Shown in pieces: positions 5,364 through 19,061 of a stretch of 20,073 nucleotides of DNA; within the stretch, counting starts at the first letter, position 1; each line of letters opens with the position of its first letter. The translations under genes and the position numbers were made by a program. The notes under the pieces are model-generated. The model had not been told where the DNA came from. It saw only the letters and a list, made by a program, of their open reading frames with translations, and ran no database searches. Source of the stretch: Cycloclasticus sp. (GTDB lineage Bacteria; Pseudomonadota; Gammaproteobacteria; Methylococcales; Cycloclasticaceae); assembly GCA_019090295.1 (NCBI GenBank), contig JAHRWG010000098.1:1-20073 (forward strand), written 5' to 3'.

Positions 5364-5804
5364 TTATTTATCCGCTAAATTGACTAGCTCAAAACAAGGT
5401 AAAAATACCTGCTCACTTATTTTCATGGTTTTCATCGCCACTGGAGAATCAATCGCTAGATGAGTAAAGTCTTTACCCAGCAACGAGCTTATCATGCGTG
5501 GCCCCTCCTCTAGTTCTACTAGCAAGACGGCATAAGGTACATCATCTCTAAAAGCTGGGCCGGGGCTACGATGAACCACGCTATATGAATGGATAATTCC
5601 ACGACCACTAGCCGCTCGATGGACTAATTTTTTTGACTGACAAATCCTGCACAGCCCTTGCTGGTAATATTGCACATGGCCGCAGTCTTCACAGTGTTGC
5701 AGTAATAACTCACCTTTTTTTAAGCCTTCCCACATGGCATGGCTGTCACTATCAGCAATTGGTAAGGGTTTCTGTATGGTATCTTCTTCAGTTAGTTGCT
5801 TCAT
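5364..5804 (-). CDS. DUF35 zinc-ribbon/OB-fold protein, partner of the thiolase-fold protein
   Basis: A 146-residue acyl-CoA-associated accessory protein. An N-terminal helix (MWEGLKKGEL) leads to a rubredoxin-like zinc ribbon with Cys38, Cys41, Cys52 and Cys55 (CxxC-x10-CxxC), then an OB-fold beginning near HSYSVVHRSPGPAF. Family knowledge: such proteins form complexes with thiolase-fold partners, as in BbsA with BbsB (benzoylsuccinyl-CoA thiolase) and the DUF35 domain of ChsH2 with the steroid aldolase Ltp2. The ATG overlaps the TGA of the thiolase-fold gene (ATGA), and GGGAG lies upstream, so the two are translationally coupled and probably made in equal amounts. It is the last gene of the operon. 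Confidence 0.88.
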   Translation of the reverse strand: MKQLTEEDTIQKPLPIADSDSHAMWEGLKKGELLLQHCEDCGHVQYYQQGLCRICQSKKLVHRAASGRGIIHSYSVVHRSPGPAFRDDVPYAVLLVELEEGPRMISSLLGKDFTHLAIDSPVAMKTMKISEQVFLPCFELVNLADK

Positions 5805-6982
5805 AGGGTGCTCCCTTTACCGAGCACGGTCGTCGCATGGGTGGAAAAACCTGCACCTAAGGTGTGTACTAAACCCACTTCTGCATCCTTCACTTGGCGT
5901 TCACCACAATTACCACGAAGCTGACGCACCACTTCTGTGAAATGAAACCATGCTGCTGGAATTCCAGGGTGAGCATACGACAACATTCCACCATGTGTGT
6001 TTGTAGGAATACACCCGCCATATGTTATTTCACCCGCTTCGACAAAGGGGCCTGCCTCACCTTTTTTACAAAAACCTAAATCTTCTAACATCATCAAGAC
6101 CGTTCCTGTAAAGCAGTCATAAATACCCGCTACATCTATATCTAGAGGAGAAACACCTGCCATTTGGTAGGCTTTTTGTGCTGACTGAACAGCCCCTGTT
6201 TCTGTTAAGTTAGGCATTAAGAAAATATGTTCATGGCTATAGTATTCACCGCCACCAAGAATGAAAATAGGTTCTTGGTTGTATTCATAAGCCTTTTCAG
6301 CCGACGTTAATATAAGGGCGGCCGCTCCGTCAGATATTAAGGAGCAATCCAGTTTTCGATACGGTGAACTCACCATTTTTGAAGCGAGTACATCATCAAT
6401 ACTGATTAAATCAGTCTTTTGCGCCCCAGGCGTGCGACTAGCATGTTGGCGAAAGGTAACCGCTACTTGAGCCATTTGCTCGGAGGTCGTGCCAAACTCT
6501 TTCATATGACGATGCGCAGTCATTGCAAAGGTATTAGCCACCGGTATACCAAAAGGCATTTCGTATTGTTGGTCACGGCTTTCCGTCATCGCCCTAATGG
6601 CCAAATCGGGAGTCATCCCAGTGAGTAAGCTATCGCCACAAGCCACCAATACGGTGTCTGCCAAACCTGAACAAATGGCTGCAGCGGCAGTATTCACAGC
6701 CGCACCTGCTGTTGCACCAGACACTTGAAGGGTATTTGAATACGAGGGCTGAATATTTAGGTATTCACTTAAAGCCACACTAAAGCGATGAAAGGATGAT
6801 GCGTACGCATTACCTGTTAGAACGCCGTCCAACTGGCTTTTATCCATGCCGGCATCGGCCAATGCCTTAAGGCTGGCATCGGCTGTTAGGTCTAAGGGGC
6901 TTCTTCCAGGCACTCGACCTGATGGAGACTGACCGATGCCGACAATAGCAACCTTCCCTCTAAGGGTATTTTTATTGCGCAT
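5801..6982 (-). CDS. Thiolase-fold, Ltp2/SCP2-like acyl-CoA C-C lyase (lacks nucleophilic Cys)
   Basis: A 393-residue thiolase-superfamily protein. At the site of the thiolase nucleophile (CAT in human SCPx) it reads GAT (Gly89 in QVSGATAG), and the usual second active-site Cys near the C-terminus is also missing (TLGAGFSTHA). The HPG of NTHGGMLSYAHPG, IYDCFT and EVVRQLRG are typical of the lipid-transfer-protein-like subfamily that includes the retro-aldolase Ltp2. It is therefore more likely to cleave a 3-hydroxyacyl-CoA by retro-aldol chemistry than to perform thiolysis; this is inference. Start: the third in-frame ATG (6982) has GGTGG six bases upstream and overlaps the carboxylase stop by 11 bases; the frame is open to 7003. 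It is coupled to the DUF35 gene by an ATGA overlap. Confidence 0.85.
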   Translation of the reverse strand: MRNKNTLRGKVAIVGIGQSPSGRVPGRSPLDLTADASLKALADAGMDKSQLDGVLTGNAYASSFHRFSVALSEYLNIQPSYSNTLQVSGATAGAAVNTAAAAICSGLADTVLVACGDSLLTGMTPDLAIRAMTESRDQQYEMPFGIPVANTFAMTAHRHMKEFGTTSEQMAQVAVTFRQHASRTPGAQKTDLISIDDVLASKMVSSPYRKLDCSLISDGAAALILTSAEKAYEYNQEPIFILGGGEYYSHEHIFLMPNLTETGAVQSAQKAYQMAGVSPLDIDVAGIYDCFTGTVLMMLEDLGFCKKGEAGPFVEAGEITYGGCIPTNTHGGMLSYAHPGIPAAWFHFTEVVRQLRGNCGERQVKDAEVGLVHTLGAGFSTHATTVLGKGSTL

Positions 6983-8960
6983 CGACATCCACCAATACCG
7001 CACTTTTAGCTACGTTGTTCCCTATTTGACAATAGAGCTCACTAACCACTCCATCATGGATCGCTTCAATTTGTAATTGCATTTTCATTGATTCCATTAC
7101 GATAAGTAGCTGGCCTGCCTTAACACTATCACCCTCATTAACCAATACTTGAATAACTTCACCCATCATCGGTGCTGTGATACTTTTACTGAGAAGGCTA
7201 TCAACTTGTTTATCGCTCACACGGGGTACCACCTGAAAGCTATTTTGTTGCCCCCGACTATGCACATGTACACCCTTATTATTAATTAGAGCCCTGGCTA
7301 GATAGCGAGCATCTTTAAATTTTGCCAAATAAGAATGATCACCTTGAGTTTTTACATTCACCTCAAAGCGTGTCTCATTAACCAGTAGTGTAATGGTGTT
7401 TGATGGGTCAACCGATACAATAGCAATTTTCCAAGAAACATCACCATCGGCCAAATCAAACCCATAAATCGGTTGATCATCGGGTGATAGCATTCCCCAC
7501 TGAGTAAAAGAGCCTGTTTTTTTCCATGGGTTTTTACTACCACTGTCTCTGTGTTGATCGAGCCATAGTGCAGCTGCAATAGCCGCGTTATTTTGGCTAC
7601 CCGCATTATCATTGACGTCGGTATAGTTCACCAACCAACGGTCAAGTGTGCCTGTATTGATACGGTCCTCTTCAACCTCTTTAACGCGCAATAATTGCTT
7701 TAAAAAATGACGGTTATTATCGACCCCAAATACGACCGTTTTATCAACGCCTTGTTGCAATCGCTCTAAGGCTTGCTGGCGCGTGTTGCCCGAAGAAATC
7801 AATTTGGCCATCATCGGGTCATAGTAAGACGATACGTTATCTCCCGTATCCACACCGGACTCAACACGAATATCATCGACAGGAAAGTCGATAAAATCAA
7901 TACTCCCCGTTGCTGGCATAAAGTTTAAGGCAGGTGATTCTGCATAAAGGCGAACCTCAATCGCATGACCTTGTTGGACAATATCAGCTTGACTCAAACC
8001 TAAGCCCGACCCTTGAGCAATTCGTATTTGTAACTCAACCAAATCTAGCCCTGTTATCAGTTCAGTAACAGGATGCTCAACTTGTAAGCGGGGGTTTACT
8101 TCTAAAAAATAATGCTGGTCTCCTTTGACAAGGAACTCGACGGTTCCAAGCCCTCTAAACTTAATTTGCTGCCCCAGTGCACAGGCATCTTTGAAGAGTT
8201 TTTTCCGTAAACTAGCTGTTAAGAAGATGGCTGGGGCTTCCTCTACCACTTTTTGATGACGGCGCTGTAGGGAGCATTCGCGTTCAAACAAATGAATAAT
8301 ATTGCCTTCACCATCACCTGCAATTTGCACCTCAACATGTCGTGCATCCATAATGCACTGTTCAATCAATAAGGCATCATCAGAAAAAGAGCGTAATGAC
8401 TCACTCATGGCGGCAGCAATATCTGCCGTTAAATTGGACAGATCATTTAAAACCCTCATGCCTTTACCACCACCACCGGCTGCTGCTTTAAGCATAATTG
8501 GCGGCATCATTGTGCGTACAACGTCAGCAATTTTGTCAGGGTCGGATAGTTTTCCCTCACTGCCTGAAATCACCGGTATTTGGGCGCGAATGGCCTCAGC
8601 CTTAGCTGCAGATTTATCTCCAAAACGCCGCAGATCATTTGCCCGTGGGCCAATAAAAATTAACCCTGCATTCTCTACTGCCTCTGCAAATTCTGGGTTT
8701 TCAGATAAAAACCCATAGCCGGGGTGAATAGCATCACAATCCGTTGATATGGCGGCATTAATGACACGCTCTATATTTAAATAACTATCAGAGACGGCTG
8801 CTCCACCTAATTCAACCGCATGCCCTATTTCTCTCACATGTCGGCTATCTTCGTCAGCTTTTGAATAGACTGCCACCGCTTCAATGCCGAGGTTTTTGCA
8901 GGTTCTTGATATACGACAAGCTATTTCACCACGGTTGGCAATCAGCACTCTCTTTATCAT
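6972..8960 (-). CDS. Acyl-CoA carboxylase alpha subunit (biotin carboxylase + biotin carrier), MCC/GCC type
   Basis: Carboxylates its own biotin using ATP and bicarbonate, to feed the beta subunit. At 662 residues it has the length and architecture of methylcrotonyl-CoA or geranyl-CoA carboxylase alpha. The N-terminal domain starts with VLIANRGEIACR; the ATP-grasp glycine loop is KAAAGGGGKGM, followed by ERECSLQRRHQK and EVNPRLQVEHPVTE. A linker region (about 450-585) precedes the C-terminal biotinyl domain, where MESMKM gives Lys626 as the biotinylation site. The start ATG forms an ATGA overlap with the beta-subunit stop, so the two subunits are coupled. Alternatives are propionyl- or acetyl-CoA carboxylase; the pairing with an MCC-like beta subunit argues for a branched or terpenoid acyl-CoA. 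Confidence 0.92.
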   Translation of the reverse strand: MIKRVLIANRGEIACRISRTCKNLGIEAVAVYSKADEDSRHVREIGHAVELGGAAVSDSYLNIERVINAAISTDCDAIHPGYGFLSENPEFAEAVENAGLIFIGPRANDLRRFGDKSAAKAEAIRAQIPVISGSEGKLSDPDKIADVVRTMMPPIMLKAAAGGGGKGMRVLNDLSNLTADIAAAMSESLRSFSDDALLIEQCIMDARHVEVQIAGDGEGNIIHLFERECSLQRRHQKVVEEAPAIFLTASLRKKLFKDACALGQQIKFRGLGTVEFLVKGDQHYFLEVNPRLQVEHPVTELITGLDLVELQIRIAQGSGLGLSQADIVQQGHAIEVRLYAESPALNFMPATGSIDFIDFPVDDIRVESGVDTGDNVSSYYDPMMAKLISSGNTRQQALERLQQGVDKTVVFGVDNNRHFLKQLLRVKEVEEDRINTGTLDRWLVNYTDVNDNAGSQNNAAIAAALWLDQHRDSGSKNPWKKTGSFTQWGMLSPDDQPIYGFDLADGDVSWKIAIVSVDPSNTITLLVNETRFEVNVKTQGDHSYLAKFKDARYLARALINNKGVHVHSRGQQNSFQVVPRVSDKQVDSLLSKSITAPMMGEVIQVLVNEGDSVKAGQLLIVMESMKMQLQIEAIHDGVVSELYCQIGNNVAKSAVLVDVDAQ

Positions 8961-10567
8961 TGTCTAAATACCCCAAATTGTGTATCAATTTTGGGGCAAC
9001 GCCCCGCTAGGTCCAGTAACAAGGCAAGCACTTCTCGTGTTTCGCATGGGTCAATCACAGCGTCATACCAAAGGTTAGATGCAAAATTATAGGCATTTTC
9101 AGAGTCTTCAAATCGTTTTCGATGCGGGGCTTTAAACGTTTCACGCTCATCATCGTTCCAAGTTTTACCTTCACGTGTCAGAATATCTTCACGCACCGTT
9201 GCTAGAGTATTAGCCACTTGTTCCGCGCCCATAATGCCAGAACGACCAGACGGCCAAGCAAGCATTGCATTTGGGTTAAAGGGTCGACCACACATAGCAA
9301 GGTATCCTGCACCATATGAGCCCCCAATAATAAGGGTGTATTTAGGTACTTTTGCCGATGACATGGCGGTAATAAATTTAGCTCCATCTTTTGCAATGCC
9401 ACCCCTTTCTGCTTCCTCGCCAACCATAAACCCAGGGACATCGGCCATAAATAACAAGGGGATATCACGCTGGCAGCACAAGTTGATAAAGTGGGTTCCT
9501 TTTTTTGCAGATTCGCTAAACATAACACCATCATTCATTAAAATACCCACTTCAAACCCGTGAATTTTGGCAAACCCACAGATTAATGTGTCGCCATAAT
9601 TGGCTTTAAATTCATCAAAATGACTGCCATCAACCAACCTTGCTAGAATGTCTCTATTGGCCGTTGGTATTTTCGTGTCTTGATTAATAATGCCGTAGAT
9701 ATCATCAATGGGGTAAAGCGGATCAACCGACGAGGCAACATCCCATCGTTGGGTAGGAGCTGTGCCAAAGTTAGCTGCAATATCTCTAACAATACTGAGT
9801 CCATGCGCATCGTCTTCAGCTATATAGTCGGCCACCCCACTGTCACGAGTGTGCATCTCAGCACCGCCCAGTTCTTCGTGTCCTACTTTTTCACCGGTTG
9901 CTGCTTCAACCAATTGTGGGCCACCTAAGTACATAAACCCTTTACCGCGCACAATAACAACCTCATCACATAAAGCAGGAATATAAGCACCACCAGCAGT
10001 AGATGAGCCCATGACAATTGCAATTTGGGGAATACCTTGTGCTGACATATCAACTTGGTGGACAAAAATACTGCCGAACATTCCTTCATCAGGGAATATG
10101 CCTTCTTGTTCCGGTAAATAGGCGCCGCCACTTTGTACCATGGTAATGCAAGGAAGCCGGTGTTGGATGGCAAACCGTTGAGCTCTAACATGCTTTTTGC
10201 AGGTCATAGGGTAATAGCTTCCCCCTTTTACCGTTGCATCATTAACAATGATCATACACTGGCGGTTATTAACTAAACCTACACCTGTTATTAAACTGGC
10301 TCCAATATGAGTACCATCCGCTAAATTATCACCCGCCAATTCACCTAATTCGAAAAAGGGTGAACCCACATCCAGTAATAACCGAATTCGCTCACGTGGA
10401 AGTATTTGACCTCTACTCTCTGTATGCCTTAATCGTGCTTTTTCTGGACCACCAAGGTGCGCCCTTTTCCGCCTTGCTTGCAAGTCTTTGACCAGGGTTA
10501 AATAGTGCTCTTTATTGTGAATAAAACTGCTTGCCTGGCCATTAACATTAGAAGGGATAATCGACAT
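8957..10567 (-). CDS. Acyl-CoA carboxylase beta subunit (carboxyltransferase), MCC/GCC type
   Basis: Transfers the carboxyl group from biotin to an acyl-CoA. The 536 residues hold both crotonase-like halves of a carboxyltransferase: N-terminal oxyanion motif VQSGGAYLP, then MGSSTAGGAYIPA and LGGPQLVEAATGE, and in the C-terminal half GGSYGAGYLAM followed by WPSGRSGIMG. These motifs follow methylcrotonyl/geranyl-CoA carboxylase beta (MccB/LiuB, AtuC) more closely than propionyl-CoA carboxylase. Neither the rest of the leucine catabolic liu set nor a recognisable HMG-CoA lyase is present, so leucine breakdown is unlikely here. The substrate may be a beta-branched unsaturated acyl-CoA of the alicyclic pathway (inference). 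The start lies 2 bp after the ligase stop, with AAAAGG upstream. Confidence 0.92.
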   Translation of the reverse strand: MSIIPSNVNGQASSFIHNKEHYLTLVKDLQARRKRAHLGGPEKARLRHTESRGQILPRERIRLLLDVGSPFFELGELAGDNLADGTHIGASLITGVGLVNNRQCMIIVNDATVKGGSYYPMTCKKHVRAQRFAIQHRLPCITMVQSGGAYLPEQEGIFPDEGMFGSIFVHQVDMSAQGIPQIAIVMGSSTAGGAYIPALCDEVVIVRGKGFMYLGGPQLVEAATGEKVGHEELGGAEMHTRDSGVADYIAEDDAHGLSIVRDIAANFGTAPTQRWDVASSVDPLYPIDDIYGIINQDTKIPTANRDILARLVDGSHFDEFKANYGDTLICGFAKIHGFEVGILMNDGVMFSESAKKGTHFINLCCQRDIPLLFMADVPGFMVGEEAERGGIAKDGAKFITAMSSAKVPKYTLIIGGSYGAGYLAMCGRPFNPNAMLAWPSGRSGIMGAEQVANTLATVREDILTREGKTWNDDERETFKAPHRKRFEDSENAYNFASNLWYDAVIDPCETREVLALLLDLAGRCPKIDTQFGVFRQ

Positions 10568-10569
10568 AT

Positions 10570-11970
10570 CTAGCGTACCTTTTCACTAGGGTTAACAAAA
10601 TCTGGCATTTCTCGAAGCGTTAAGGCAACTTTAGCCACACCAGGTTTAGAAAAGCTATTCGCTGCGACAACAATAACCTGAGCTTTAAATGAAAGAGAGT
10701 TCTTAATTGCTTGCTGAACTTTATCAACCAGCAGCGGGTCATCCTGTTCAGGTATATCAACTCCACGTTCCACGATAACTTTTAAGTTTTGCTGTGTCGT
10801 ATGGCCCTTAAAGTCGGCTAACACGCGCATAACCCCGTTGGTCAATGGCTTTAATTGTAGAACAAGGTCTTGAATGGCTGATGGAAACACATTAATGCCG
10901 CGTACAATTAACATGTCATCGGTGCGTCCAAAGCACCTTATTTTAGGTCCAGTCCTGCCGCAACCGCACTCGGTATCTGTCACAATAATGTGGTCACCGC
11001 TTTTAAAACGAACGACCGGTGACGCTTCCCGTGTTATGGCTGTATAAACAAGCTCCCCAGTTGTTCCTTTCTCAAATGGAATCACTTCATCTGTTTCAGG
11101 GTTTATCAGTTCAACAATAATATGATCTTGGCAAATCATATGCATGCCGTCCTGTTGATCACACTCACCCCAATAAATCACTCCTAGGTCAGTCCCACCC
11201 ATCATTTCACATACTTTTGCGCCCCAAGCGTCTTCAAGTGCTTGGCGAATAGCGGGAATACCTCCGCCAGGTTCGCCGCCCACCACTAATTGTTCAACCC
11301 CTAACTCATGCGCTGGTTGACCTAAAACATCCGGTGCTAAAGACGCCATGTGCAACAAGAAGTTTGGCGCACCAATGATGACACGCGGTTTAATATCGCC
11401 ACAGGCACGCAGCAGGCGGTCAACACCTCCATCTGCCCCAACCGGTATATCAATGGCACCCATATACTGAATGGCTTGCATACAGGGAATGCCACCGACA
11501 AAGCCCTTACTCATTGAGAAGCCATGTAACACAAAATCTCCCGGCTGAATGCCACAGGCATAAAGACCACGCGCGCTTAATTCATTCCAACTGGCCACAT
11601 CTTTCTCTGTTAGGGCAACATAGGCAGGGCTACCGGTTGTTCCAGATGAAGCTTGCATTTGGATAATATCAGTTACATTAGCTGCTTGGTGCAAACCAAA
11701 AGGAGGGCTAGCTTGCAAGCTATCTCTTAACTCTTGTTTAACCGTAAAGGGTACCTTAGCGAGATCGTCTAAGGTATTAATGTCTTCAAAACGAATCCCA
11801 GCTTGAGAAAACTTCTGCTGATAAAAGGCTGAATGATGAGCCAAGTAAGCCATTTGCTTTTGTAATTGCTCCTCTTGCAAATGAACAATATCACTTTCTA
11901 GGGCGACTTCAATAGGGTGATAGTGCCCTTGCCCACTCTTACTCGCCGCATCCAAACGTTTATAAGACAT
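10570..11970 (-). CDS. Phenylacetate-CoA ligase (PaaK) family acyl/aryl-CoA synthetase
   Basis: An adenylate-forming ligase expected to activate a carboxylic acid to its CoA thioester with ATP, in the cytoplasm. It has 466 residues, slightly longer than PaaK. The phosphate-binding loop is SSGTTGSP (108-115), the acyl-adenylate region includes MMGGTDLG (257-264), the hinge region GRTDDMLIVRGINVFP (348-363) is typical, and a candidate catalytic lysine of the C-terminal subdomain is Lys447 in GVAKVALTLR. Cys335 and Cys337 (CGCG) may bind zinc as in some relatives. AAAGGAAAGG precedes the ATG. In this operon it is the only ligase, so it is the best candidate for activating the growth substrate or a released side-product acid. 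A ring-hydroxylating Paa system is not present, so phenylacetate is unlikely. Confidence 0.87.
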   Translation of the reverse strand: MSYKRLDAASKSGQGHYHPIEVALESDIVHLQEEQLQKQMAYLAHHSAFYQQKFSQAGIRFEDINTLDDLAKVPFTVKQELRDSLQASPPFGLHQAANVTDIIQMQASSGTTGSPAYVALTEKDVASWNELSARGLYACGIQPGDFVLHGFSMSKGFVGGIPCMQAIQYMGAIDIPVGADGGVDRLLRACGDIKPRVIIGAPNFLLHMASLAPDVLGQPAHELGVEQLVVGGEPGGGIPAIRQALEDAWGAKVCEMMGGTDLGVIYWGECDQQDGMHMICQDHIIVELINPETDEVIPFEKGTTGELVYTAITREASPVVRFKSGDHIIVTDTECGCGRTGPKIRCFGRTDDMLIVRGINVFPSAIQDLVLQLKPLTNGVMRVLADFKGHTTQQNLKVIVERGVDIPEQDDPLLVDKVQQAIKNSLSFKAQVIVVAANSFSKPGVAKVALTLREMPDFVNPSEKVR

Positions 11971-11979
11971 ACCTTTCCT

Positions 11980-12402
11980 TTAATTGATTTTACAAACAGA
12001 AAACCCCTTAACAACCGGCTTTTCACCACAGTAGCAAACTAACTGACAGCGTGCATAAACACCTTCATCACGCTGAAAAATACTATCAACTTCACCACAA
12101 ACACGTACCGTATCACCCGGGTAAACAGGTCCAAGAAAGGCAATATCTAGTTCTCCACCATAGGCCCAGCCCTGCCAGTTCCATGTTGATAAGACGCGTG
12201 ATACGAATGCCAGCGTTAATAAACCATGTGCAATGGTGCGACCAAAAATAGTTGTTTTGGCAAACTCAGGATCAATGTGTAAAGGGTTAATATCCCCTGA
12301 TGCGTCGGCATAGGCATCGATCATGTGCTGATCGACCACTTGTATAACCTCTGGCAACGCCTGACCAACTGAGATATTTGCATAGCTCTGTAATTCACTC
12401 AT
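11980..12402 (-). CDS. MaoC-type (R)-specific enoyl-CoA hydratase, catalytic partner
   Basis: A single hot-dog protein of 140 residues. The hydratase dyad is seen in ASGDINPLHID: Asp37 and His42 (D-x4-H), followed by GRTIAHGLLTLAF, as in PhaJ and MaoC. The start at 12402 is chosen because its ATG forms an ATGA overlap with the upstream stop and AAGGA lies five bases before it; the reading frame is open five codons further to a TTG. The tight coupling to a degenerate MaoC protein suggests a heteromeric hydratase of the ChsH1-ChsH2 kind, in which one chain supplies the active site and the other the space for a bulky acyl group. The substrate is unknown. Confidence 0.87.
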   Translation of the reverse strand: MSELQSYANISVGQALPEVIQVVDQHMIDAYADASGDINPLHIDPEFAKTTIFGRTIAHGLLTLAFVSRVLSTWNWQGWAYGGELDIAFLGPVYPGDTVRVCGEVDSIFQRDEGVYARCQLVCYCGEKPVVKGFSVCKIN

Positions 12403-12824
12403 GATTCCTTCCCCCAAATTCTTGTAATCATGCCGCTTGTCACTAGCTCACCATTTTCATTTTTTGTATCGGTGCTCATATCCACGTAGTTACGCCCTTT
12501 CTTTTGATAAAGCTTGATAACCGTTGCCGATGTATAAAGCGTTTCACCTATAGTTGCAGGCCGATAAAATTTAAACTGTTGTTTAGCATGAATGCCACCT
12601 GGTGGGCCAACACGTGTTCGTAACGCTTCAATCACATAAACCGCTGCTAACATCGGTGGCGCAATGCGCGTATTACCAGGGCCGGTTTGTTGAAGCTCTA
12701 AAGTATTATCATTGGTAGCAAGAAGGTATTTATCGACAGCTTCTTGTGTCACCTTATATGCCGGTATTGGGTTAAGAAAATCATCGCCTTCGGTTAGGCT
12801 ATCGTAGGTTACGTAATCACTCAT
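12399..12824 (-). CDS. Degenerate MaoC-like hot-dog protein (non-catalytic partner)
   Basis: A 141-residue hot-dog domain related to MaoC N-terminal/FAS1-type dehydratase domains. At the position of the D-x4-H dyad it reads ATNDNTLELQQ, without the histidine, so it should not hydrate by itself. A conserved core remains in APPMLAAVYVIEAL and QQFKFYRPATIGETLY. It is followed by, and overlaps, the intact MaoC gene. By analogy with the ChsH1/ChsH2 pair from cholesterol degradation, it would be the subunit that shapes the pocket for a bulky or branched enoyl-CoA. That role is inferred from the missing dyad and the gene coupling only. Confidence 0.82.
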   Translation of the reverse strand: MSDYVTYDSLTEGDDFLNPIPAYKVTQEAVDKYLLATNDNTLELQQTGPGNTRIAPPMLAAVYVIEALRTRVGPPGGIHAKQQFKFYRPATIGETLYTSATVIKLYQKKGRNYVDMSTDTKNENGELVTSGMITRIWGKES

Positions 12825-12846
12825 TTTAAGTCTCTATCGTAGGTAT

Positions 12847-13869
12847 TTAGATTATTTGGTACTGATCAACCGTGGCCTCTTTTAGGCTTAGTTCTTGTTT
12901 AGCCATCAAAAAATTCAGGTGTGCTTTAGCTTCACCAACCGCGAGGAATTTATTTAAGACACTTAAACGTGTACCAAACATTTCCTCCATCACTGCTCGG
13001 CCACTTCTTGGCTGCTTACAAAATTGGCGTATTTGCTCTAATCCCTTTTCATGCCCAAGTCGCAAGTCATTGACACGTTCTTGTAGCCCATCAAATATAA
13101 CGCCATGAGAGGGTAAAACACGTGTTGAAACATCGAGCCTCGCTAAACTTAGTAAACTGTCTAAATAAGCCCCTAAGACATTTGCATCTGGCTCGCTATA
13201 AGCCACGCTAATATTAGGTGAGATAGTGGGCAACACTTGATCACCTGCAATAAGAATATCTCGACTAACTAGGTGTAGGCAAAGGTGTTCAGGGCTATGA
13301 CCAGCAAAACTGAGTACACGCCATTTTTCATGGTTAATGTCTAAGTGTTGCTCGGCTTCTAAGCGCCAATAAGTTGCTGGAAGCTGGGCATCTTCCGAAC
13401 TTGGCCGCCTTTTAATTAAGCTGGAGATATCCTCTTCTGATAAACCAAAGTGCTGATAAAACTCAACTCTAGCGAGTGTTTGTGCTGGCGTAGGTTCTTG
13501 GTACGCTTGTTGCGCCGTTAAAAATTCGGCTCGGCTCATGTATAAAGGTGCCTGAGTTTTTTTTGTCAGCCAATGGGCCATACCTAAGTGGTCTGGGTGA
13601 AAGTGAGTCACAATCACTTTATGAATGGTCTCTCGCTGACAAAAATTACTTAAAACATCCTCCCAAATTTGAATGCTTTCTTCACAATAAAAACCCGTAT
13701 CTACAATTGTCCAGCCATCTAAGTCACGAAGTAGCCATAAATTGATATGGTCTAAGGCAAAAGGGATAGGCATTTTTAACAAAAAGATCCCTTTAGATAC
13801 TTCTAAAGGGATTCCAAAATCTGGTTTTGTCTTTATAGGAGCATGCAACACCTTCGCTCGCTGTAACAT
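12847..13869 (-). CDS. Metallo-beta-lactamase-fold hydrolase (putative acyl-CoA thioesterase-like)
   Basis: A 340-residue MBL-fold hydrolase with a dinuclear metal site. The diagnostic motif THFHPDH gives His89, His91, Asp93 and His94; further ligands are likely in FAGHSPEHL, in IAGDQVLP, and in LPSHG near residue 256. An additional C-terminal helical domain (about 265-340) resembles LACTB2/glyoxalase II-like relatives. No signal peptide is seen, so it is cytoplasmic. Such proteins occur inside fatty-acid and alicyclic-acid oxidation operons, where hydrolysis of a dead-end or product CoA thioester, or of a lactone, is a reasonable guess. Actual chemistry cannot be told from the fold. The ATG lies 14 bp after the preceding stop and has no strong ribosome binding site. 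Confidence 0.82.
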   Translation of the reverse strand: MLQRAKVLHAPIKTKPDFGIPLEVSKGIFLLKMPIPFALDHINLWLLRDLDGWTIVDTGFYCEESIQIWEDVLSNFCQRETIHKVIVTHFHPDHLGMAHWLTKKTQAPLYMSRAEFLTAQQAYQEPTPAQTLARVEFYQHFGLSEEDISSLIKRRPSSEDAQLPATYWRLEAEQHLDINHEKWRVLSFAGHSPEHLCLHLVSRDILIAGDQVLPTISPNISVAYSEPDANVLGAYLDSLLSLARLDVSTRVLPSHGVIFDGLQERVNDLRLGHEKGLEQIRQFCKQPRSGRAVMEEMFGTRLSVLNKFLAVGEAKAHLNFLMAKQELSLKEATVDQYQII

Positions 13870-13883
13870 GCTAACGAACCGGC

Positions 13884-15014
13884 CTAAACCTTAGAGAATC
13901 GCTGTAAGTGGTAATCACGATCACCAAATAAGGTATTGAGCATGGTTAAGCGTTTAACATAATGAGCAACATCAAGTTCATCGGTAACACCAATGCCCCC
14001 ATGAAGTTGAGCTGCTTGCTCAGCAACGATTGAACGGGCATCACCCATATAAATTTTAGCTGCAGATACACTTTTAGTTCGTGTATCAAACTGGCCTTCA
14101 TCGACACGAATAGCTGCTAAATAAGCAAGGGAACGCATTTGCTCTTCAGCCATAAACATATCAACAACGCGGTGTTGCAATACTTGAAAATGGCCAATGA
14201 CTTGATTAAATTGTTTCCTGGTTTTAAGGTACTCAACGGTTTTTTCACGTAACTGACCAACAACGCCCACCCCTTCTGCACAAATAGCCGCAGCGGCAGA
14301 GTCAAGCACAGACTCTATCGTGGCGTAGGCATTATCAAGCTCACCCAGTAAGGCAGACGACTCAACCATCACGTCATTTAAACTAACTTCTGAAGCGCGC
14401 AAACCATCCACTGTTTCGTAGTGCCTAAAGTCCACTCCTTTTGTATTTTTATCTATTAGAAAGAGAGAGATGCCTTCTTTACTGATCGTGTCACCTGATG
14501 TTCTTGCACTAACAATAATATGGTCTGCGGTTTCGGCATTGAAAACAACCGATTTTTGACCATTAATAAGGTAGCCACCTGATTGTTTCTCAGCCTTACA
14601 TGCAATATCCGCAAGGTTATAGCGGCCTTGTCGTTCCACGTAGGCAAATGCTAACTTTAACTCACCCGCGATTAGGGCAGGTAAAATGCTCTCTTTTTGC
14701 TGCTCATTGCCCGCTTGTTGTACCAGTTGGCCACCCAAGATAATAGAGGCTAAATAAGGCTCTAAAACCAAGCCTTTACCAATGGCTTCCATAACAACGA
14801 TTAAGCCCGTTTGGCCTAAGCCAAAACCACCATATTGCTCATCAAATGCAACTCCAAGCAACCCCATGTCGGCAAAGCTTTGCCAGTGTTGCTCACTATA
14901 ACCAATCCCTTGACGGCTTAACTTTTGGCGGGATTCAAAATCATATTCATGTTGCAGAAATTTATCTAAGCTATCTTGCAACATCGTCATTTCTTCTGTG
15001 AACTCTAAATTCAT
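13884..15014 (-). CDS. Acyl-CoA dehydrogenase, PimD-like (pimeloyl-CoA dehydrogenase small subunit family)
   Basis: A 376-residue acyl-CoA dehydrogenase-fold protein that closely follows the pimeloyl-CoA dehydrogenase small subunit pattern: VVMEAIGKGLVLEPYLAS, FAYVERQGRYNLADIA, NGQKSVVF and GHFQVLQHRVVDMF. Neither usual catalytic glutamate position is filled: the helix-G region reads VLDSAAAAI and the C-terminal loop reads LFGDRDYH. This is expected for the non-catalytic chain of an alpha-beta heterotetramer, as in FadE28-FadE29 (ChsE1-ChsE2) and PimC-PimD. GAGGAG upstream supports the ATG at 15014. It lies 15 bp after the stop of the large-subunit gene, so the two are surely co-expressed. 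Confidence 0.85.
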   Translation of the reverse strand: MNLEFTEEMTMLQDSLDKFLQHEYDFESRQKLSRQGIGYSEQHWQSFADMGLLGVAFDEQYGGFGLGQTGLIVVMEAIGKGLVLEPYLASIILGGQLVQQAGNEQQKESILPALIAGELKLAFAYVERQGRYNLADIACKAEKQSGGYLINGQKSVVFNAETADHIIVSARTSGDTISKEGISLFLIDKNTKGVDFRHYETVDGLRASEVSLNDVMVESSALLGELDNAYATIESVLDSAAAAICAEGVGVVGQLREKTVEYLKTRKQFNQVIGHFQVLQHRVVDMFMAEEQMRSLAYLAAIRVDEGQFDTRTKSVSAAKIYMGDARSIVAEQAAQLHGGIGVTDELDVAHYVKRLTMLNTLFGDRDYHLQRFSKV

Positions 15015-15029
15015 TTCTATGCTCCTCTA

Positions 15030-16226
15030 TTAAAGTCCGAGTACGGCTTTAGCCATAATGTTTTTTTGAATTTCGTTTGAACCACCATAAATAGATGATT
15101 TACGCCAATCAAAATAATGCGGGGCTAAAACGGATGCTTCTTCCGGCCCAATCGGTTCGTCTTGCCAGCCTTCTAGCATGGTTTCTTTAATATAAGGAAA
15201 GCCAAAGTAGCCAACGGTTTCCATAAGGAGTGCTGTGATCGATTGCTGAACCTCCGTACCTTTTATTTTTAGTAATGATGATTCAACGCCTGGCGAATCA
15301 CCTGCGGATAATTTAGACAAAACACGTAAATTGGTCATTTCCAATGCCATCAATTCAACTTCGACTTGAGCTATTTTGGCGCTAAACTGGCTATCTTCAA
15401 TTAAAGGCTTGCCGTTATACATTTCTTTTTTTGCCAACGTTTTAAGTCGATCAATTTGCTTTTTAGAGCGGGGAACCTGCGCAATATAGGTGCGTTCATG
15501 TTGCAATAAATACTTTGCAATCGTCCAGCCATCGCCTTCAATACCCACTAAATTCTCAACCGGAACTTTTACATCTTCTAAGAAAATTTGATTAACAACA
15601 TGCATGCCATCAACGGTAATGATTGGATCAACTGTCACGCCCGCCGCTTTCATATCGATCAGTAAAAAACTAATGCCTTTCTGCTTTTTATCTTCTTGGC
15701 TTGTTCTTACCAAGGTAAACATCATATCGGCATAATGGCCATGGGTTGTCCATGTCTTAGAGCCGTTGACAATATAGTGGTCACCCTCTTTAACCGCTTT
15801 TGTTTGCAAAGAGGCTAAATCTGAACCTGCATTTGGCTCCGAATAGCCTTGGCACCACCAAGTGTCACTATTGTAAATATCGCTAAGGTATTTTTTACGT
15901 TGTTCGTCCGTTCCAAACTGCATCAGCACGGGAGCTAACATCACCAAACCGAAAGAGACGGTTCTTAAGCAATTGGCTGCACCACATTCTTCTTCAAAAA
16001 TATATTTTTCAACTGGCGTCCAACCTGGGCCACCAAACTCTTTAGGCCAACCTGGGGCGATCCAACCTTTGTCGGCTAAAACCTTTTGCCATCGGACATA
16101 ATCATCCTTTTTTAAGGCAATGCCCTTTGCTACTTTTTGTTGAATGTCTGCAGGGTAGTTAGCCTGTAGGAACTCACGAACGTCCTGTTGAAAGGCTTGT
16201 TCTTGCTCGGTATATTTTAAATCCAC
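15030..16226 (-). CDS. Acyl-CoA dehydrogenase, PimC-like (pimeloyl-CoA dehydrogenase large subunit family)
   Basis: An FAD-dependent enzyme predicted to make the 2,3-double bond in a dicarboxylyl- or bulky acyl-CoA. Of its 398 residues, the FAD/substrate region YSEPNAGSDLASL (128-140) and the flavin-side WTTHGHYAD (159-167) are intact. The C-terminal loop is IYGGSNEIQK, with no Glu at the usual place; instead Glu244 in LLQHERTYIA sits where isovaleryl-CoA dehydrogenase has its catalytic base (Glu254). The start is a GTG at 16226, supported by AAGGA about seven bases upstream; no ATG exists nearby. Together with the next gene it should form an alpha-beta heterotetramer oxidising the ring-opened pimeloyl-CoA analogue made by the BadI-like hydrolase. 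Confidence 0.87.
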   Translation of the reverse strand: MDLKYTEQEQAFQQDVREFLQANYPADIQQKVAKGIALKKDDYVRWQKVLADKGWIAPGWPKEFGGPGWTPVEKYIFEEECGAANCLRTVSFGLVMLAPVLMQFGTDEQRKKYLSDIYNSDTWWCQGYSEPNAGSDLASLQTKAVKEGDHYIVNGSKTWTTHGHYADMMFTLVRTSQEDKKQKGISFLLIDMKAAGVTVDPIITVDGMHVVNQIFLEDVKVPVENLVGIEGDGWTIAKYLLQHERTYIAQVPRSKKQIDRLKTLAKKEMYNGKPLIEDSQFSAKIAQVEVELMALEMTNLRVLSKLSAGDSPGVESSLLKIKGTEVQQSITALLMETVGYFGFPYIKETMLEGWQDEPIGPEEASVLAPHYFDWRKSSIYGGSNEIQKNIMAKAVLGL

Positions 16227-16263
16227 TTTTTTTCCTTTTCTTTAACACTTAATTATTAAAACT

Positions 16264-16293
16264 CACTGAATCAATATTGAAATTTATTCAGTG
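16264..16293 (-). other. Intercistronic stem-loop after the BadI-like gene
   Basis: A perfect 8-bp inverted repeat, CACTGAAT (16264-16271) with ATTCAGTG (16286-16293), around a 14-base loop. It begins within the last codons of the hydrolase gene, encloses its stop codon, and on the minus strand is followed by AGTTTTAATAATT. It lies in the longest gap of the operon (57 bp). It could be a weak attenuator or an RNA processing/stability element; the low GC content makes strong termination unlikely. Confidence 0.4.
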
Positions 16294-17066
16294 TATTGCC
16301 TAAAATCTGGCTGACGCTTTTCATTAAAGGCCTTAACCCCTTCTTGGGACTCATCACTATCGTAATATAGCTTTAGGGCTTGCATGCCCATGGCTGAGAT
16401 ACCCCTAATATTGTCTGTATCGGCATTAAATGAACGCTTGGCAATAGCAAGGGCTGTCGGGCTTTTTTGCATGATTTCATCACACCATTGCTGTACCTCA
16501 TCGGCTAATTTATCGTGTGCAACGACTTTGTTAACTAAGCCCATTTCTAATGCTTCTTGCGCAGTGTATTTACGGCACATGTACCACATTTCGCGTGCTT
16601 TCTTTTCACCAACAACACGCGCTAAATAGGCCGTTCCAAACCCTGGGTCCACTGAGCCTACTTTCGGGCCAACCTGGCCAAAAATAGCCTTTTCTGAAGC
16701 AATGGTCATGTCACAGATTGTCGCCAACACATTACCACCACCAATCGCGTAACCTTGAACCATGGCTATCACTGGTTTTGGAGCGTCTCTTAAAATAGAT
16801 TGCAGCTCTTCAACGGGTAAACCTATCACACCGCGCCCATCATACTGCCCTTCATGCGCACTTTGATCACCACCTGTACAGAAAGCTTTGTCACCAGCAC
16901 CAGCCAATACAATCACGCCAATGCTCGTGTCCCAAGCCGCTTTGGTCAATGCATGAATCAGTTCTTCGCAGGTTTGCCCTCTAAATGCATTAAATACCTT
17001 AGGTCTATTGATAGTGACATAGGCTGCGCCATTAGTGACGCTATAGATAATATCTTCGTAATCCAT
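16284..17066 (-). CDS. badI: 2-ketocyclohexanecarboxyl-CoA hydrolase (BadI-like ring-opening enzyme)
   Basis: A crotonase-fold hydrolase of the MenB/BadI branch. BadI opens 2-ketocyclohexane-1-carboxyl-CoA to pimeloyl-CoA in Rhodopseudomonas palustris. From the ATG at 17066 the protein has 260 residues, the length I recall for BadI, and follows it through INRPKVFNAFRG, FCTGGDQS, GYAIGGGNVLATICD, FGQVGPKVGSVDPGFGTA, REMWYMCRKY and SPTALAIAKRSFN. Asp140 (GSVDPG) and Tyr235 (LYYDSDES) match the MenB active-site Asp and Tyr. AGGA five bases before this ATG decides against the ATG four codons upstream. MenB is the alternative, but no other menaquinone gene is present and the neighbours handle pimeloyl-type CoA esters. 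The true substrate may be an alkylated ring. Confidence 0.88.
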   Translation of the reverse strand: MDYEDIIYSVTNGAAYVTINRPKVFNAFRGQTCEELIHALTKAAWDTSIGVIVLAGAGDKAFCTGGDQSAHEGQYDGRGVIGLPVEELQSILRDAPKPVIAMVQGYAIGGGNVLATICDMTIASEKAIFGQVGPKVGSVDPGFGTAYLARVVGEKKAREMWYMCRKYTAQEALEMGLVNKVVAHDKLADEVQQWCDEIMQKSPTALAIAKRSFNADTDNIRGISAMGMQALKLYYDSDESQEGVKAFNEKRQPDFRQYTE

Positions 17067-17089
17067 CTGCTTCCTCATTATTTGTTTGC

Positions 17090-17887
17090 TTAACGCTGTT
17101 TAAAAACAGGGTCACGTCGTTCTGAAAATGCTGTTAGGCCTTCCCTAACATCATCACTTTGTAGGCCTTTAGTTGCTTCAACTTCCTCTAGCTTCAAGGC
17201 ATCCGGCAAACTCAAGTCAGCGCCTGTGTAAGCCAGGCTCTTCATCATGGACAAACCATCCGCACTTTTATTGGTTAATAATTGGCAATACTTAAGGGCT
17301 TCTTCTCTTAAGGTCTCTCTGGGAACCAAATAATTGACCATTCCCCATTTTTCAGCGTCTATCGCCTTTAAGCGCCGACCAGACATCATCAAGTCTAAGG
17401 CTCGTCGACAACCAACAATCCTTGGTAATCGCTGACTTCCACCCCAGCCTGGTATCAATCCATAGTTAGCGTGTTGGTCACCAAATACTGCATCATCTGC
17501 AGCAAATATAATGTCACTTGCCAGTGATATCTCTAAGCCACCGGCCAAGCAAAAACCTTGAATTGCGGCAACAACAGGCAAGCAGCTTTGCTCAAAATCG
17601 GTACATGTTTTGTGCCCCAGCTCAATAAAGGCTTGTAAACCCTGATCAGTTTTTTCATCTATTAGAGTATTCACTTCATCTAAATCGGCACCTGTACAAA
17701 AGTGTTTACCTTCCGAGCACAATAAAATAGCTCTAACCTTTGGGTTATTAGTATGCAGCTTTAATGCATCTTGCAAGGCTTGATGCACTGATAATGATAG
17801 GCAGTTAAATTTGTCAGCACGATTGATAATAATTAGGCCAACTTGACCTTCTATTTTAGTTAGGACAATTGAATCATTCATAAGCAT
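17090..17887 (-). CDS. Enoyl-CoA hydratase/isomerase-family protein missing one catalytic Glu
   Basis: A 265-residue crotonase. The CoA-binding FCTGADLDE (63-71) and oxyanion GGLE are present, and Glu119 fills the first catalytic position (Glu144 of rat enoyl-CoA hydratase). The second (Glu164) is replaced by His139 in FGDQHANYGLIPGWGG. Classical hydratases need both glutamates, so simple 2-enoyl-CoA hydration is doubtful; isomerase, lyase or hydrolase chemistry, or hydration of an unusual cyclic enoyl-CoA, is possible. By position it fills the BadK (cyclohex-1-ene-carboxyl-CoA hydratase) slot beside the BadI-like gene. A second in-frame ATG two codons in (17881) is an equally good start. Spacing to the neighbours is 11-23 bp. 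Confidence 0.83.
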   Translation of the reverse strand: MLMNDSIVLTKIEGQVGLIIINRADKFNCLSLSVHQALQDALKLHTNNPKVRAILLCSEGKHFCTGADLDEVNTLIDEKTDQGLQAFIELGHKTCTDFEQSCLPVVAAIQGFCLAGGLEISLASDIIFAADDAVFGDQHANYGLIPGWGGSQRLPRIVGCRRALDLMMSGRRLKAIDAEKWGMVNYLVPRETLREEALKYCQLLTNKSADGLSMMKSLAYTGADLSLPDALKLEEVEATKGLQSDDVREGLTAFSERRDPVFKQR

Positions 17888-17906
17888 GGTCTCTTAGCGT
17901 TAAATA

Positions 17907-19061
17907 TTAATAAGGGACGCCATCGCGACCAATTTTTTCACGGGCAATAATCATTTTTTGAATTTGCGCCGTTCCATCCCCAATTTGAAGGCCCAGCACA
18001 TCACGTAAGCGTTGCTGAATAGGGTAGTCTTTGCTGTAGCCTCCATGGCCATGTGCAAGTAAACAATTATGGATAATCTCAAACGATACTTTAGGGGCCC
18101 ACCATTTACACATAGCCGCTTCTGCAGTATGAGGTTCACCCTGGTCTCTAAGCCAAAGTGTTTTATAGCACAGTAGTTTAGCGGCTTCTATAAATGTTTC
18201 TGCTTCAGCCAGTGGAAAAGTCACCCCTTCAAATTTTGATATCTTTTTACCAAATGCTTCGCGTGCTGTCACTTGCTGCCAAGTTTCTTCAACTGACACT
18301 TCAGCCGCCCCTAAGCATTGAAGACCAATTAAGGCACGACTGTAATCAAACCCTTGCATGACTTGGATAAACCCCATGCCCTCATCACCCAGCATATTGA
18401 TTGCAGGCACTTCAACATTGTCAAAAAATAAAGAGCCACGCCCTACAATGGATTCACCAATATCATCAAAATGCGTTCGTTCAATATTAGGGTTATCCAA
18501 AGGCACTAAAAACGCACTAACTCCTCGTGCTCTCTCGTCTGTAGTGCCGGTTCTTGCAAAGACAACGGCCACATCAGCCTGCGCTGCAGCAGAAATTGAT
18601 GTTTTCTCACCATTTAAAACGAACACATCACCCTTTCGCTCGGCTTTAAGCTTAATATTAGCTGCATCTGACCCTGCACTTGGCTCAGTTAAAGCAATAG
18701 CTACCATGGCTTCACCTGTAATAATCCGGCTTAACCAATATTGTGCCAGTTCAGGCGCTGCAAATTTCTCGATAATACTGCCATTAAGGCCAGCAAGGAC
18801 TTGCACATAAGCGACGTTAAAGTCACCACGTGAAATTTCTTCTGTGATCAGCCCTGCTGTCACATAATCTAAGCCTAAACCACCGTATTTAGTCGACAAC
18901 TCAGCCCCTATAAAGCCTAAATCACCCATTTGCTTTAACATGTCTCTATCGACAATATGTTTATCATCATTTGATTGATAATTAGGGAGTAGTTTTTCTT
19001 CTGCAAAGCGTCGAGCACTATCTTTTATGGCAAGTTGTTCTTCAGACCAAGAGAAATTCAT
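17907..19061 (-). CDS. Acyl-CoA dehydrogenase, AliB-like (cyclohexanecarboxyl-CoA dehydrogenase candidate)
   Basis: A 384-residue FAD-dependent acyl-CoA dehydrogenase and the first gene of the operon. The motifs ALTEPSAGSDAANIKL, NGEKTSIS and HGHGGYSKDYPIQQRLRD are standard. In the C-terminal catalytic loop the usual EGT is DGT: Asp362 in LGLQIGDGTAQIQK. An Asp base has been reported for alicyclic-ring acyl-CoA dehydrogenases, and with a BadI-like gene two positions downstream the best assignment is desaturation of a cyclohexanecarboxyl-CoA-type ring. Related Asp-containing dehydrogenases with other substrates exist, so this is not certain. AGGA precedes the ATG at 19061. It is divergent from the MmgE/PrpD gene, with 153 bp between the starts. 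Confidence 0.85.
   Translation of the reverse strand: MNFSWSEEQLAIKDSARRFAEEKLLPNYQSNDDKHIVDRDMLKQMGDLGFIGAELSTKYGGLGLDYVTAGLITEEISRGDFNVAYVQVLAGLNGSIIEKFAAPELAQYWLSRIITGEAMVAIALTEPSAGSDAANIKLKAERKGDVFVLNGEKTSISAAAQADVAVVFARTGTTDERARGVSAFLVPLDNPNIERTHFDDIGESIVGRGSLFFDNVEVPAINMLGDEGMGFIQVMQGFDYSRALIGLQCLGAAEVSVEETWQQVTAREAFGKKISKFEGVTFPLAEAETFIEAAKLLCYKTLWLRDQGEPHTAEAAMCKWWAPKVSFEIIHNCLLAHGHGGYSKDYPIQQRLRDVLGLQIGDGTAQIQKMIIAREKIGRDGVPY

Follow-up and report, generated by a model that had tools for sequence, protein, structure and literature searches.

What could a single operon be degrading when it encodes both the opening of a cyclohexane-type ring and the carboxylation, hydration and cleavage of an acyl-CoA? 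We addressed this question for a contig of Cycloclasticus sp. (assembly GCA_019090295.1, contig JAHRWG010000098.1), whose full length of 20,073 bases is called the window here. The assembly, of 2.15 Mb in 375 contigs and 81% complete, is probably a metagenome-assembled genome (MAG). The operon comprises thirteen intact open reading frames (ORFs), all on the minus strand, co-directional and tightly packed between positions 5364 and 19061. The reading we favour, at a probability of roughly 40%, is that it would catabolise a ring-acetic acid, for example cyclohexylacetate from even-chain alkylcyclohexanes, by a cyclic version of leucine and citronellol catabolism.

Organisation and conservation of the operon

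In transcription order, the genes encode AliB, an enoyl-CoA hydratase (ECH), BadI, PimC-like and PimD-like proteins and a metallo-beta-lactamase-fold hydrolase, followed by a MaoC pair, a PaaK-like ligase, a carboxyltransferase (CT), a biotin carboxylase/biotin carboxyl carrier protein (BC/BCCP), a thiolase-fold protein and a DUF35 protein. Intergenic spacing ranges from -32 to +57 bp, with overlaps of 4 bp between CT and BC, 32 bp between BC and the thiolase gene, 4 bp between the thiolase and DUF35 genes and 19 bp between the two MaoC genes. Promoter and terminator scans of the window returned fewer sites than shuffled sequence did.

We searched 101 genomes, the window's own included. BadI was tallied in 12 of them, counting the own genome and also G008, where the only match is a paralog of 45%; close BadI thus occurs in 10 other genomes. 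All thirteen genes were found in the same order and orientation in six relatives (G003, G004, G006, G007, G017, G029), of which G029 belongs to another family of the order, and this arrangement is not due to chance. An earlier note, made from the window alone, had described a thirteen-gene operon and suggested looking for these genes together in other genomes; the intact, co-directional ORFs and the order kept in six relatives bear it out, and the PaaK-like ligase and metallo-beta-lactamase-fold genes are members beyond those it had named.

At the edges of this distribution, AliB of G017 is cut by a contig end, as is the operon in G013 and G005. On its contig, G015 retains no more than the BadI-to-MaoC part, after which comes a different carboxylase cluster in the opposite orientation; in G023, BadI is the only operon gene at the locus. 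In G003, the ligase match falls into two pieces (L023:7429-8807) and the CT match (73%) is poorer than in the other relatives, possibly through frameshifts or assembly errors. A fourteenth gene, with hexapeptide repeats, lies between BadI and PimC in G003, G006, G007, G015, G017 and G029 and is absent from the window and G004. A gene of the MmgE/PrpD family adjoins the operon in six of the seven relatives' loci checked; the seventh contig (L029) begins at AliB. The thiolase-fold protein of the operon (thiolase A) was found at 85% or more in 8 of 18 genus genomes, own included. Its best seven loci comprise five in Cycloclasticus MAGs and two titled Gammaproteobacteria and Methylococcaceae.

Ring-opening genes

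BadI passes the TIGR03210 equivalog cut-off (476.1 versus 467.6 bits) and is a predicted 2-oxocyclohexanecarboxyl-CoA hydrolase. AliB (AliB1) passes that of TIGR03207 (602.2 versus 575.35 bits) and matches Aromatoleum proteins named cyclohexanecarboxyl-CoA dehydrogenase at 64-66%. PimC and PimD score below their equivalog cut-offs (Table 1), so that we treat them at family level only, as PimCD-like. These matches agree with the earlier proposal of a cyclohexanecarboxyl-type ring opening to a pimeloyl-CoA analogue. We also considered a dearomatizing hydrolase of the TIGR03200 type in the own genome and rejected it, since all matches fell far under the cut-off and the best was BadI itself.

The names of the best-scoring named relatives of AliB and BadI refer to unsubstituted cyclohexanecarboxylate. 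Such names cannot settle whether the ring is substituted, because one BadI shares 88% identity with MrcE, an enzyme whose assigned substrate has an isopropenyl ring (PMC4109377). In an AliB tree of 104 rows, which samples about every fourth protein of the relatives list plus the named ones, with identical pieces merged, and which carries long-branch warnings, AliB1 forms a separate clade whose order relative to Aromatoleum AliB the tree does not fix. A second AliB (AliB2), from the gene island around the operon, groups with Bradyrhizobium/Afipia-type AliB (support 100/99).

The carboxylase

The CT scores 621 bits to AccD1, 594 bits to the beta chain of human methylcrotonyl-CoA carboxylase (MCC) and 424 bits to that of geranyl-CoA carboxylase (GCC). 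Against most chains named propionyl-CoA carboxylase (PCC) it reaches about 250 bits or less, which makes a PCC identity unlikely, though one chain named PCC-beta (9tps) gives 600 bits. It keeps the MCC Phe (Phe164, at the MCC Phe191 position, counted on an alignment with human MCC-beta), the 3-residue insertion and the N-terminal helix extension by which we recognised MCC. The Phe and the insertion separate MCC from GCC, which has Gly and lacks the 3-residue insertion (PMC4673880). A GCC identity was therefore rejected, as the CT has no Gly at this position and the insertion is present. By sequence it is nearest to the MCC/GCC lineage, which carboxylates the gamma carbon of beta-branched enoyl-CoAs. 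These marks do not fix its substrate, because Bradyrhizobium-type CTs are closer to it (61-65%) than the other MCC-type CTs of the genus (47-53% identical).

This type of CT is rare: at E<=1e-190 it occurs in 3 of 398 phylum genomes, own included, and one of the other two, G733, has thiolase A adjacent to it. Seven Bradyrhizobium/Afipia-type loci (L053, L054, L056, L059, L061, L066, L100) contain a second CT with Ala at the MCC Phe position, which suggests a larger acyl pocket in that protein.

Hydratase, aldolase and ligase

The thiolase-fold protein scores 279 bits to 4u4e, 198 bits to the steroid aldolase CtSal (9myr_A) and 172 bits to Ltp2 (6ok1_A). Among the 77 aligned rows of its family (60% or more, counting the window; identical pieces merged and tblastn pieces under the length limits left out), the thiolase nucleophile position is Ser-Gly in every row and the motif Tyr-Asp-Cys-Phe (YDCF, with Cys297) is invariant. 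We rejected a true thiolase for lack of the nucleophilic Cys. The earlier note had called the protein Cys-less, which is correct for the nucleophile position and not for the motif, where Cys297 is kept throughout. Sal works through a Tyr/Cys catalytic dyad (PMC12329534), and the residues aligned with it indicate that the operon protein keeps both positions. It thus combines the features of the Sal/Ltp2 type, namely no nucleophilic Cys, Tyr in a YDxx motif and a DUF35 partner. Two paralogous thiolase-fold/DUF35 pairs of Cycloclasticus carry YDAF and YDSF instead. The solved chains nearest to the DUF35 protein are the partners of Sal and Ltp2; in the operon it is a separate protein, not fused to MaoC.

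Of the two MaoC subunits, the catalytic one has the motif GD-x-NPLH in 10 of 10 aligned rows, window included, and its partner in the window has no D-x4-H anywhere. This pair resembles the active/inert subunits of the ChsH1-ChsH2 hydratase (PMC11321319). The steroid-type hydratase of the earlier note stands as far as this pairing goes and fails on the other marks of ChsH1-ChsH2 and Shy: DUF35 is unfused, and MaoCa matched no ChsH1 or ChsH2 chain at E<=1 (MaoCb was not searched). We likewise rejected a steroid side-chain operon, since neither the PimD-like acyl-CoA dehydrogenase (ACAD) nor MaoCa is close to the solved Chs chains. With an active/inert hydratase pair and an aldolase site of the Sal kind, the module probably hydrates its substrate and cleaves the resulting beta-hydroxyacyl-CoA by a retro-aldol reaction, in keeping with what the note had described.

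The PaaK-like ligase has phenylacetate-CoA ligases as its nearest solved chains, followed by 2-hydroxyisobutyryl-CoA synthetase. The metallo-beta-lactamase-fold hydrolase weakly resembles PqsE, a thioesterase (E about 6e-6), and the chains closer to it have general names only.

A possible route from ring-acetic acids into BadI

From what is observed, namely which genes are present, their order and conservation, their families and their motif residues, we infer a route in which every substrate and the order of steps are part of the inference. The ligase would form the CoA ester of a ring-acetic acid, and an acyl-CoA dehydrogenase would convert it to cyclohexylideneacetyl-CoA. The MCC-lineage carboxylase would then place bicarbonate on the gamma carbon. 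In cyclohexylideneacetyl-CoA this carbon is ring C2, which is why a carboxylase makes sense before ring opening. The MaoC pair would hydrate the product to a tertiary alcohol at ring C1, and the thiolase-fold/DUF35 protein would cleave it by retro-aldol reaction to acetyl-CoA and 2-oxocyclohexanecarboxylate, a beta-keto acid like acetoacetate. Once activated to its CoA ester, the latter could be opened by BadI to pimeloyl-CoA, with PimCD and beta-oxidation completing the degradation. In sum, cyclohexylacetate (C8) and bicarbonate would yield acetyl-CoA and pimeloyl-CoA, and the PaaK-like ligase, the hydratase pair, the aldolase, BadI and PimCD would each have a step; the scheme assigns none to the metallo-beta-lactamase-fold gene. 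AliB and the hydratase, with a BadH-like enzyme of the island, could handle cyclohexanecarboxylate itself, so that both routes would meet at BadI. More tentatively still, CO2 would thereby be fixed onto the ring and acetyl-CoA removed by a retro-aldolase, avoiding cyclohexanone and Baeyer-Villiger chemistry, and the catabolism of even- and odd-chain alkylcyclohexanes would converge on one ring hydrolase.

Several observations point this way. BadI and AliB are at equivalog level; the CT is closest to a gamma-carboxylating lineage, and the aldolase has the Sal dyad positions without a thiolase nucleophile; the operon lacks AliA and BadH and has instead a PaaK-like ligase of the ring-acetate type, a carboxylase, a hydratase pair and an aldolase; the CT, BC, thiolase and DUF35 genes overlap; and the named relatives include bins labelled Diesel and Guay6. 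Indirect support from an independent source comes from Pseudomonas fluorescens Pf-5, in which five proteins (two ACADs, a 3-hydroxyacyl-CoA dehydrogenase and two acyl-CoA carboxylase subunits) were reported to be differentially expressed when a commercial naphthenic acid mixture was supplied, and to go undetected with an aromatic model acid or in controls (PMC8289671). Three of their accession numbers are nearly consecutive, which suggests one operon.

Comparison with known systems

The gene set is a new combination built from known families. In the leucine (Liu) and acyclic terpene (Atu) pathways, gamma-carboxylation is followed by hydration to a tertiary alcohol and C-C cleavage to acetyl-CoA and a beta-keto acid. 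The operon would share these three reactions and differs in having a thiolase-fold/DUF35 pair in place of HMG-CoA lyase or AtuA, a MaoC pair in place of a crotonase, and BadI hydrolysis thereafter. Its carboxylase clade is also distinct from the GCC-type CT of an Atu cluster in the island.

With the bad-ali systems described in Rhodopseudomonas palustris and Aromatoleum sp. CIB (PMC9795900) it shares an AliB-type dehydrogenase, BadI, a pimeloyl-CoA-type product and PimCD-like enzymes. It differs in its carboxylase, MaoC pair, PaaK-like ligase and thiolase-fold/DUF35 aldolase. The canonical set of AliA, AliB, BadH and BadI is not found together, AliA and BadH being absent from the operon, and AliA-like and BadH-like genes, below cut-offs, lie elsewhere in the island. 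A simple bad-ali operon was rejected on these grounds, eight genes falling outside the bad-ali and pim sets.

The steroid modules ChsE1E2-ChsH1H2-Ltp2 and Shy-Sal, as described (PMC12329534), have in common with the operon a thiolase fold with DUF35, an inert hydratase partner and, for Sal, the Tyr/Cys dyad. In the operon, by contrast, DUF35 is not fused to MaoC, the ACADs are PimCD-like, the sequence relation is distant, and His stands at the position of Sal Gln352, as read from a pairwise alignment. The mrc genes of Castellaniella and the lrc genes of Syntrophobacteraceae were compared by description rather than by sequence. Like the operon, which leaves its BadH-like enzyme to the island, both have a BadI-type hydrolase; mrc has a MaoC pair and lrc a proposed tertiary-alcohol cleavage, for which it uses an enzyme of the HMG-CoA-synthase superfamily. 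No acyl-CoA carboxylase appears in the mrc island table (PMC4109377) or in the accessible text of the lrc account (PMC12583861). Nor does the open-licence literature on cyclohexylacetate, Cycloclasticus alicyclics and 2-oxocyclohexanecarboxyl-CoA, as far as its accessible text goes, contain a carboxylase/aldolase route into BadI.

Gene neighbourhoods beyond the close relatives

We kept the best 80 of 117 candidate thiolase A loci, with stretches of at most about 10 kb on each side; tblastn pieces below the length limits were excluded here, as they were for the AliB tree and the CT comparison. Seven of them (L036-L042) are Cycloclasticus-like, being largely the same contigs as those of the operon-bearing relatives, and their upstream genes are undercounted at this length. 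DUF35 is present in all 80, and the operon-type CT in 35 (five of L036-L042 and 30 of the other 73). A CT of any clade lies near the aldolase in 36 of these 73, mostly in Bradyrhizobium, Afipia and other Hyphomicrobiales, a recurrence that also favours the ring-acetic acid route. The PaaK-like ligase was found in six of the 80 loci (five of L036-L042, and L045), and the MaoC pair and PimCD in six each, all among L036-L042.

BadI loci outside the order numbered 12 in the class sample (11 genomes of 369) and 20 in the phylum sample (19 other genomes of 398). At the thresholds used, none of these 32 contains the operon-type CT, BC, thiolase A, DUF35 A, PaaK ligase, MaoC pair or PimCD. AliB, a BadH-like short-chain dehydrogenase/reductase (SDR) and BadI occur together in nine of the 20 phylum-sample loci, seven of which also have an AliA-like ligase; another eight are from one genus and have BadI alone. 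Several of the contigs are short. Where AliB and BadI meet in the phylum sample, a BadH-like SDR thus accompanies them; in the operon their companions are a carboxylase and an aldolase. L214 combines BadI with the paralogous pair thiolase B/DUF35 B.

Two Burkholderiales loci (L092, L106) join thiolase A with a BadI of 69-73%. L092 also has a BadH-like SDR (74%). In L106:1-11592, from a MAG, a ligase, ACAD, SDR, BadI (69%), BC, BCCP, CT and ECH lie on one strand, with a nitroreductase, thiolase A and DUF35 divergent to them, and the CT is of another clade (43% to that of the window). As judged from its sequence, L106 is an independent version of the BadI/carboxylase/aldolase combination with another carboxylase clade.

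These loci also bear on whether the operon has one function at all. It could hold two unrelated modules, one for cyclohexanecarboxylate and dicarboxylates (AliB-ECH-BadI-PimCD, perhaps MaoC) and one for a branched acyl-CoA (ligase-CT-BC-thiolase-DUF35), the latter perhaps removing branched pieces that arise from the same petroleum or isoprenoid compounds. The parts do occur separately. G015 keeps AliB1, BadI, PimCD and the MaoC pair and has no close thiolase A, so that the modules can part; the carboxylase/aldolase part stands in Bradyrhizobium-type loci that lack PimCD and the MaoC pair; and in L045 the aldolase sits with a ligase and ECH only. We nevertheless find this explanation unlikely. 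The thirteen-gene order is kept in six species, and BadI stands beside a carboxylase and aldolase again in L106, with a different carboxylase clade. A further branched-chain module would moreover be redundant, because these genomes elsewhere have an MCC-type carboxylase beside an HMGL-family gene (G004) and an Atu-type cluster (G007).

The separations in G015, L045 and the Bradyrhizobium-type loci weigh against the ring-acetic acid route as well, and a number of other observations do so with them. In the stretches examined, 37 of the 73 other thiolase A loci have no CT, and the MaoC pair and PimCD stand beside thiolase A, at the thresholds used, only in Cycloclasticus-like loci. Phylogenetic relatedness makes much of the Bradyrhizobium evidence non-independent, an SDR is still present in L106, and G691, the third genome with the operon-type CT, has the carboxylase with no aldolase nearby. 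The CT itself retains the MCC Phe, which narrows the acyl pocket, and the 9tps score is as high as those of MCC chains. Two further points, from the island, are taken up below.

The surrounding acyl-CoA island

In G007, which is assembled as one 2.56 Mb contig, the operon is part of a run of acyl-CoA genes of about 65 kb, most of which recurs in stretches from G003, G004 and G006. The pathway unit is probably this island rather than the thirteen genes alone. Genes scored against models apart, its members were named by eye or by similarity among loci. They include a second thiolase/DUF35 pair with an ACAD and a CoA-transferase; a divergent MmgE/PrpD gene, TetR, ETF-QO, EtfA, EtfB and a nitroreductase-family gene; a beta-oxidation set; and a BadH-like SDR and MaoC341. 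We also found a CitE-like lyase (nearest the CitE and RipC models, below cut-offs), a FadH/OYE-family reductase, a 3-oxoadipyl-CoA-thiolase-like enzyme (608.1 of 622 bits), the second AliB, an AliA-like ligase (614.1 of 792.3 bits) and an Atu-type cluster with AtuA (PF07287) whose CT bears the GCC signature.

The BadH-like SDR (212-218 bits, cut-off 431.2) is present in 8 of 18 genus genomes, and on the operon's contig in all four genomes where positions were compared. We therefore rejected the missing BadH as sole proof of a bypass; its absence shows only that the operons differ. The AliA-like, second AliB and BadH-like genes also make the classical cyclohexanecarboxylate route available, which is the first of the two island points that count against a dedicated ring-acetic acid route.

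The second is a likeness in kind to the Castellaniella monoterpene island, which keeps a substituted ring possible. The earlier note had placed an alkyl substituent on the ring. In a scheme of this kind, an alkyl- or isopropenyl-cyclohexanecarboxylate (a naphthenic acid or monoterpenoid) would be opened by AliB, ECH, a BadH-like enzyme and BadI to a beta-branched pimeloyl-CoA, and after one round of beta-oxidation a tertiary alcohol made by MaoC would be cleaved by the aldolase. The 2025 Lrc proposal for limonene, with ring opening and a proposed cleavage of this kind (PMC12583861), comes close to the note's idea of tertiary-alcohol cleavage, as does Mrc; the substrate is unproven. The island shares BadH-like, FadH/OYE-family reductase, MaoC, CitE-like and ACAD genes with the Castellaniella island as described (PMC4109377) and has an Atu-type cluster, and the closeness of MrcE to BadI suggests that BadI-type enzymes may accept substituents. 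We still regard a substituted ring as doubtful. No sequence feature tested indicates a substituent, and the scheme has no use for the carboxylase: once BadI has cleaved the ring, the chain carries a distal carboxyl anyway. The enzymology of the earlier note was thus largely right and its substrate guess unproven.

A cyclohexanone route for cyclohexaneacetate is known. Here, the aldolase would act on 1-hydroxycyclohexylacetyl-CoA to give cyclohexanone for Baeyer-Villiger oxidation, and the carboxylase would serve another substrate. The G007 island contains an alpha/beta hydrolase and two Baeyer-Villiger-type monooxygenases (L156:8829-13066); for one of the two monooxygenases, the closest relatives are the steroid, phenylacetone and cyclohexanone enzymes. 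Comparison with stretches of G003, G004, G006, G023 and G029 gave no match to these three genes, and the operon itself has no monooxygenase; we consider this exit very improbable. A cytochrome P450 as upstream hydroxylase was rejected, since none was found in the 18 genus genomes at E<=1e-25 (10 of the 18 are at least 90% complete). Any oxygenase for alicyclic hydrocarbons is probably of a non-P450 kind.

Further relatives of the operon genes were noted. At G007 L146:15197-19613, a CoA-transferase and an ACAD accompany a third thiolase-fold/DUF35 pair (YDAF, 43%). This pair is convergent to the operon in several relatives and absent from the window contig. A second Cycloclasticus cluster (L033:6395-12944, L035:5945-10041) has a ligase, a thiolase-fold protein (YDSF), DUF35 and a BadI/MenB-like hydrolase of 43-47% to BadI, the L033 copy being under cut-offs.

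Features of the window

The operon genes and the divergent neighbour are listed in Table 1. Contig positions 1-57 are presumably Illumina Nextera adapter, so that the first ORF (11-826) is false at its C-terminus.

Table 1. Predicted genes of the operon and its divergent neighbour, in transcription order of the operon.
Feature	Position	Strand	Basis
AliB1, cyclohexanecarboxyl-CoA dehydrogenase-type acyl-CoA dehydrogenase; proposed to act on the ring or on ring-acetyl-CoA	17907..19061	-	TIGR03207, 602.2 bits
Enoyl-CoA hydratase (crotonase family)	17090..17887	-	best NCBIfam EchA19, 191.8 bits, cut-off 400 not reached
BadI, predicted 2-oxocyclohexanecarboxyl-CoA ring hydrolase	16284..17078	-	TIGR03210, 476.1 bits
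PimC-like acyl-CoA dehydrogenase, large subunit	15030..16226	-	TIGR03204, 462.9 of 623.85 bits
PimD-like acyl-CoA dehydrogenase, small subunit	13884..15014	-	TIGR03203, 389.2 of 652.7 bits
Metallo-beta-lactamase-fold hydrolase, possibly acyl-CoA thioesterase	12847..13869	-	PF00753
MaoC/FAS1-dehydratase-like subunit without hydratase motif (inert partner)	12399..12824	-	PF13452, 32.2 bits
MaoC hydratase, catalytic subunit	11980..12417	-	PF01575, 86.2 bits
PaaK-like acyl-CoA ligase	10570..11970	-	PaaK models, 250 and 225 bits, below cut-offs
Acyl-CoA carboxylase, CT subunit, MCC/GCC lineage	8957..10567	-	similarity to AccD1, MCC-beta
Acyl-CoA carboxylase, BC + BCCP subunit	6972..8960	-	4-bp overlap with CT
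Predicted thiolase-fold retro-aldolase, Sal/Ltp2-like	5801..7003	-	similarity to 4u4e, CtSal, Ltp2
DUF35 (ChsH2 zinc ribbon + OB fold), aldolase partner	5364..5804	-	PF01796, PF12172
Divergent MmgE/PrpD-family gene, runs off contig	19215..20072	+	PF03972, 224.8 bits

Implications for alicyclic degradation

Crude oil contains large fractions of alkylcyclohexanes and naphthenic acids. Cycloclasticus is best known for its use of aromatic hydrocarbons and short alkanes. In the accessible text of a 2024 paper on its ecology, cycloalkane metabolism is mentioned once, in a figure legend (PMC12510462). The operon suggests an undescribed breakdown of petroleum ring compounds in a marine oil-associated bacterium. 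If true, an entry into BadI by carboxylation and retro-aldol cleavage would explain the oxygenase-free use of ring-acetic acids, and it would suggest functions for the carboxylase clade and the thiolase-fold/DUF35 family in Bradyrhizobium and Burkholderiales.

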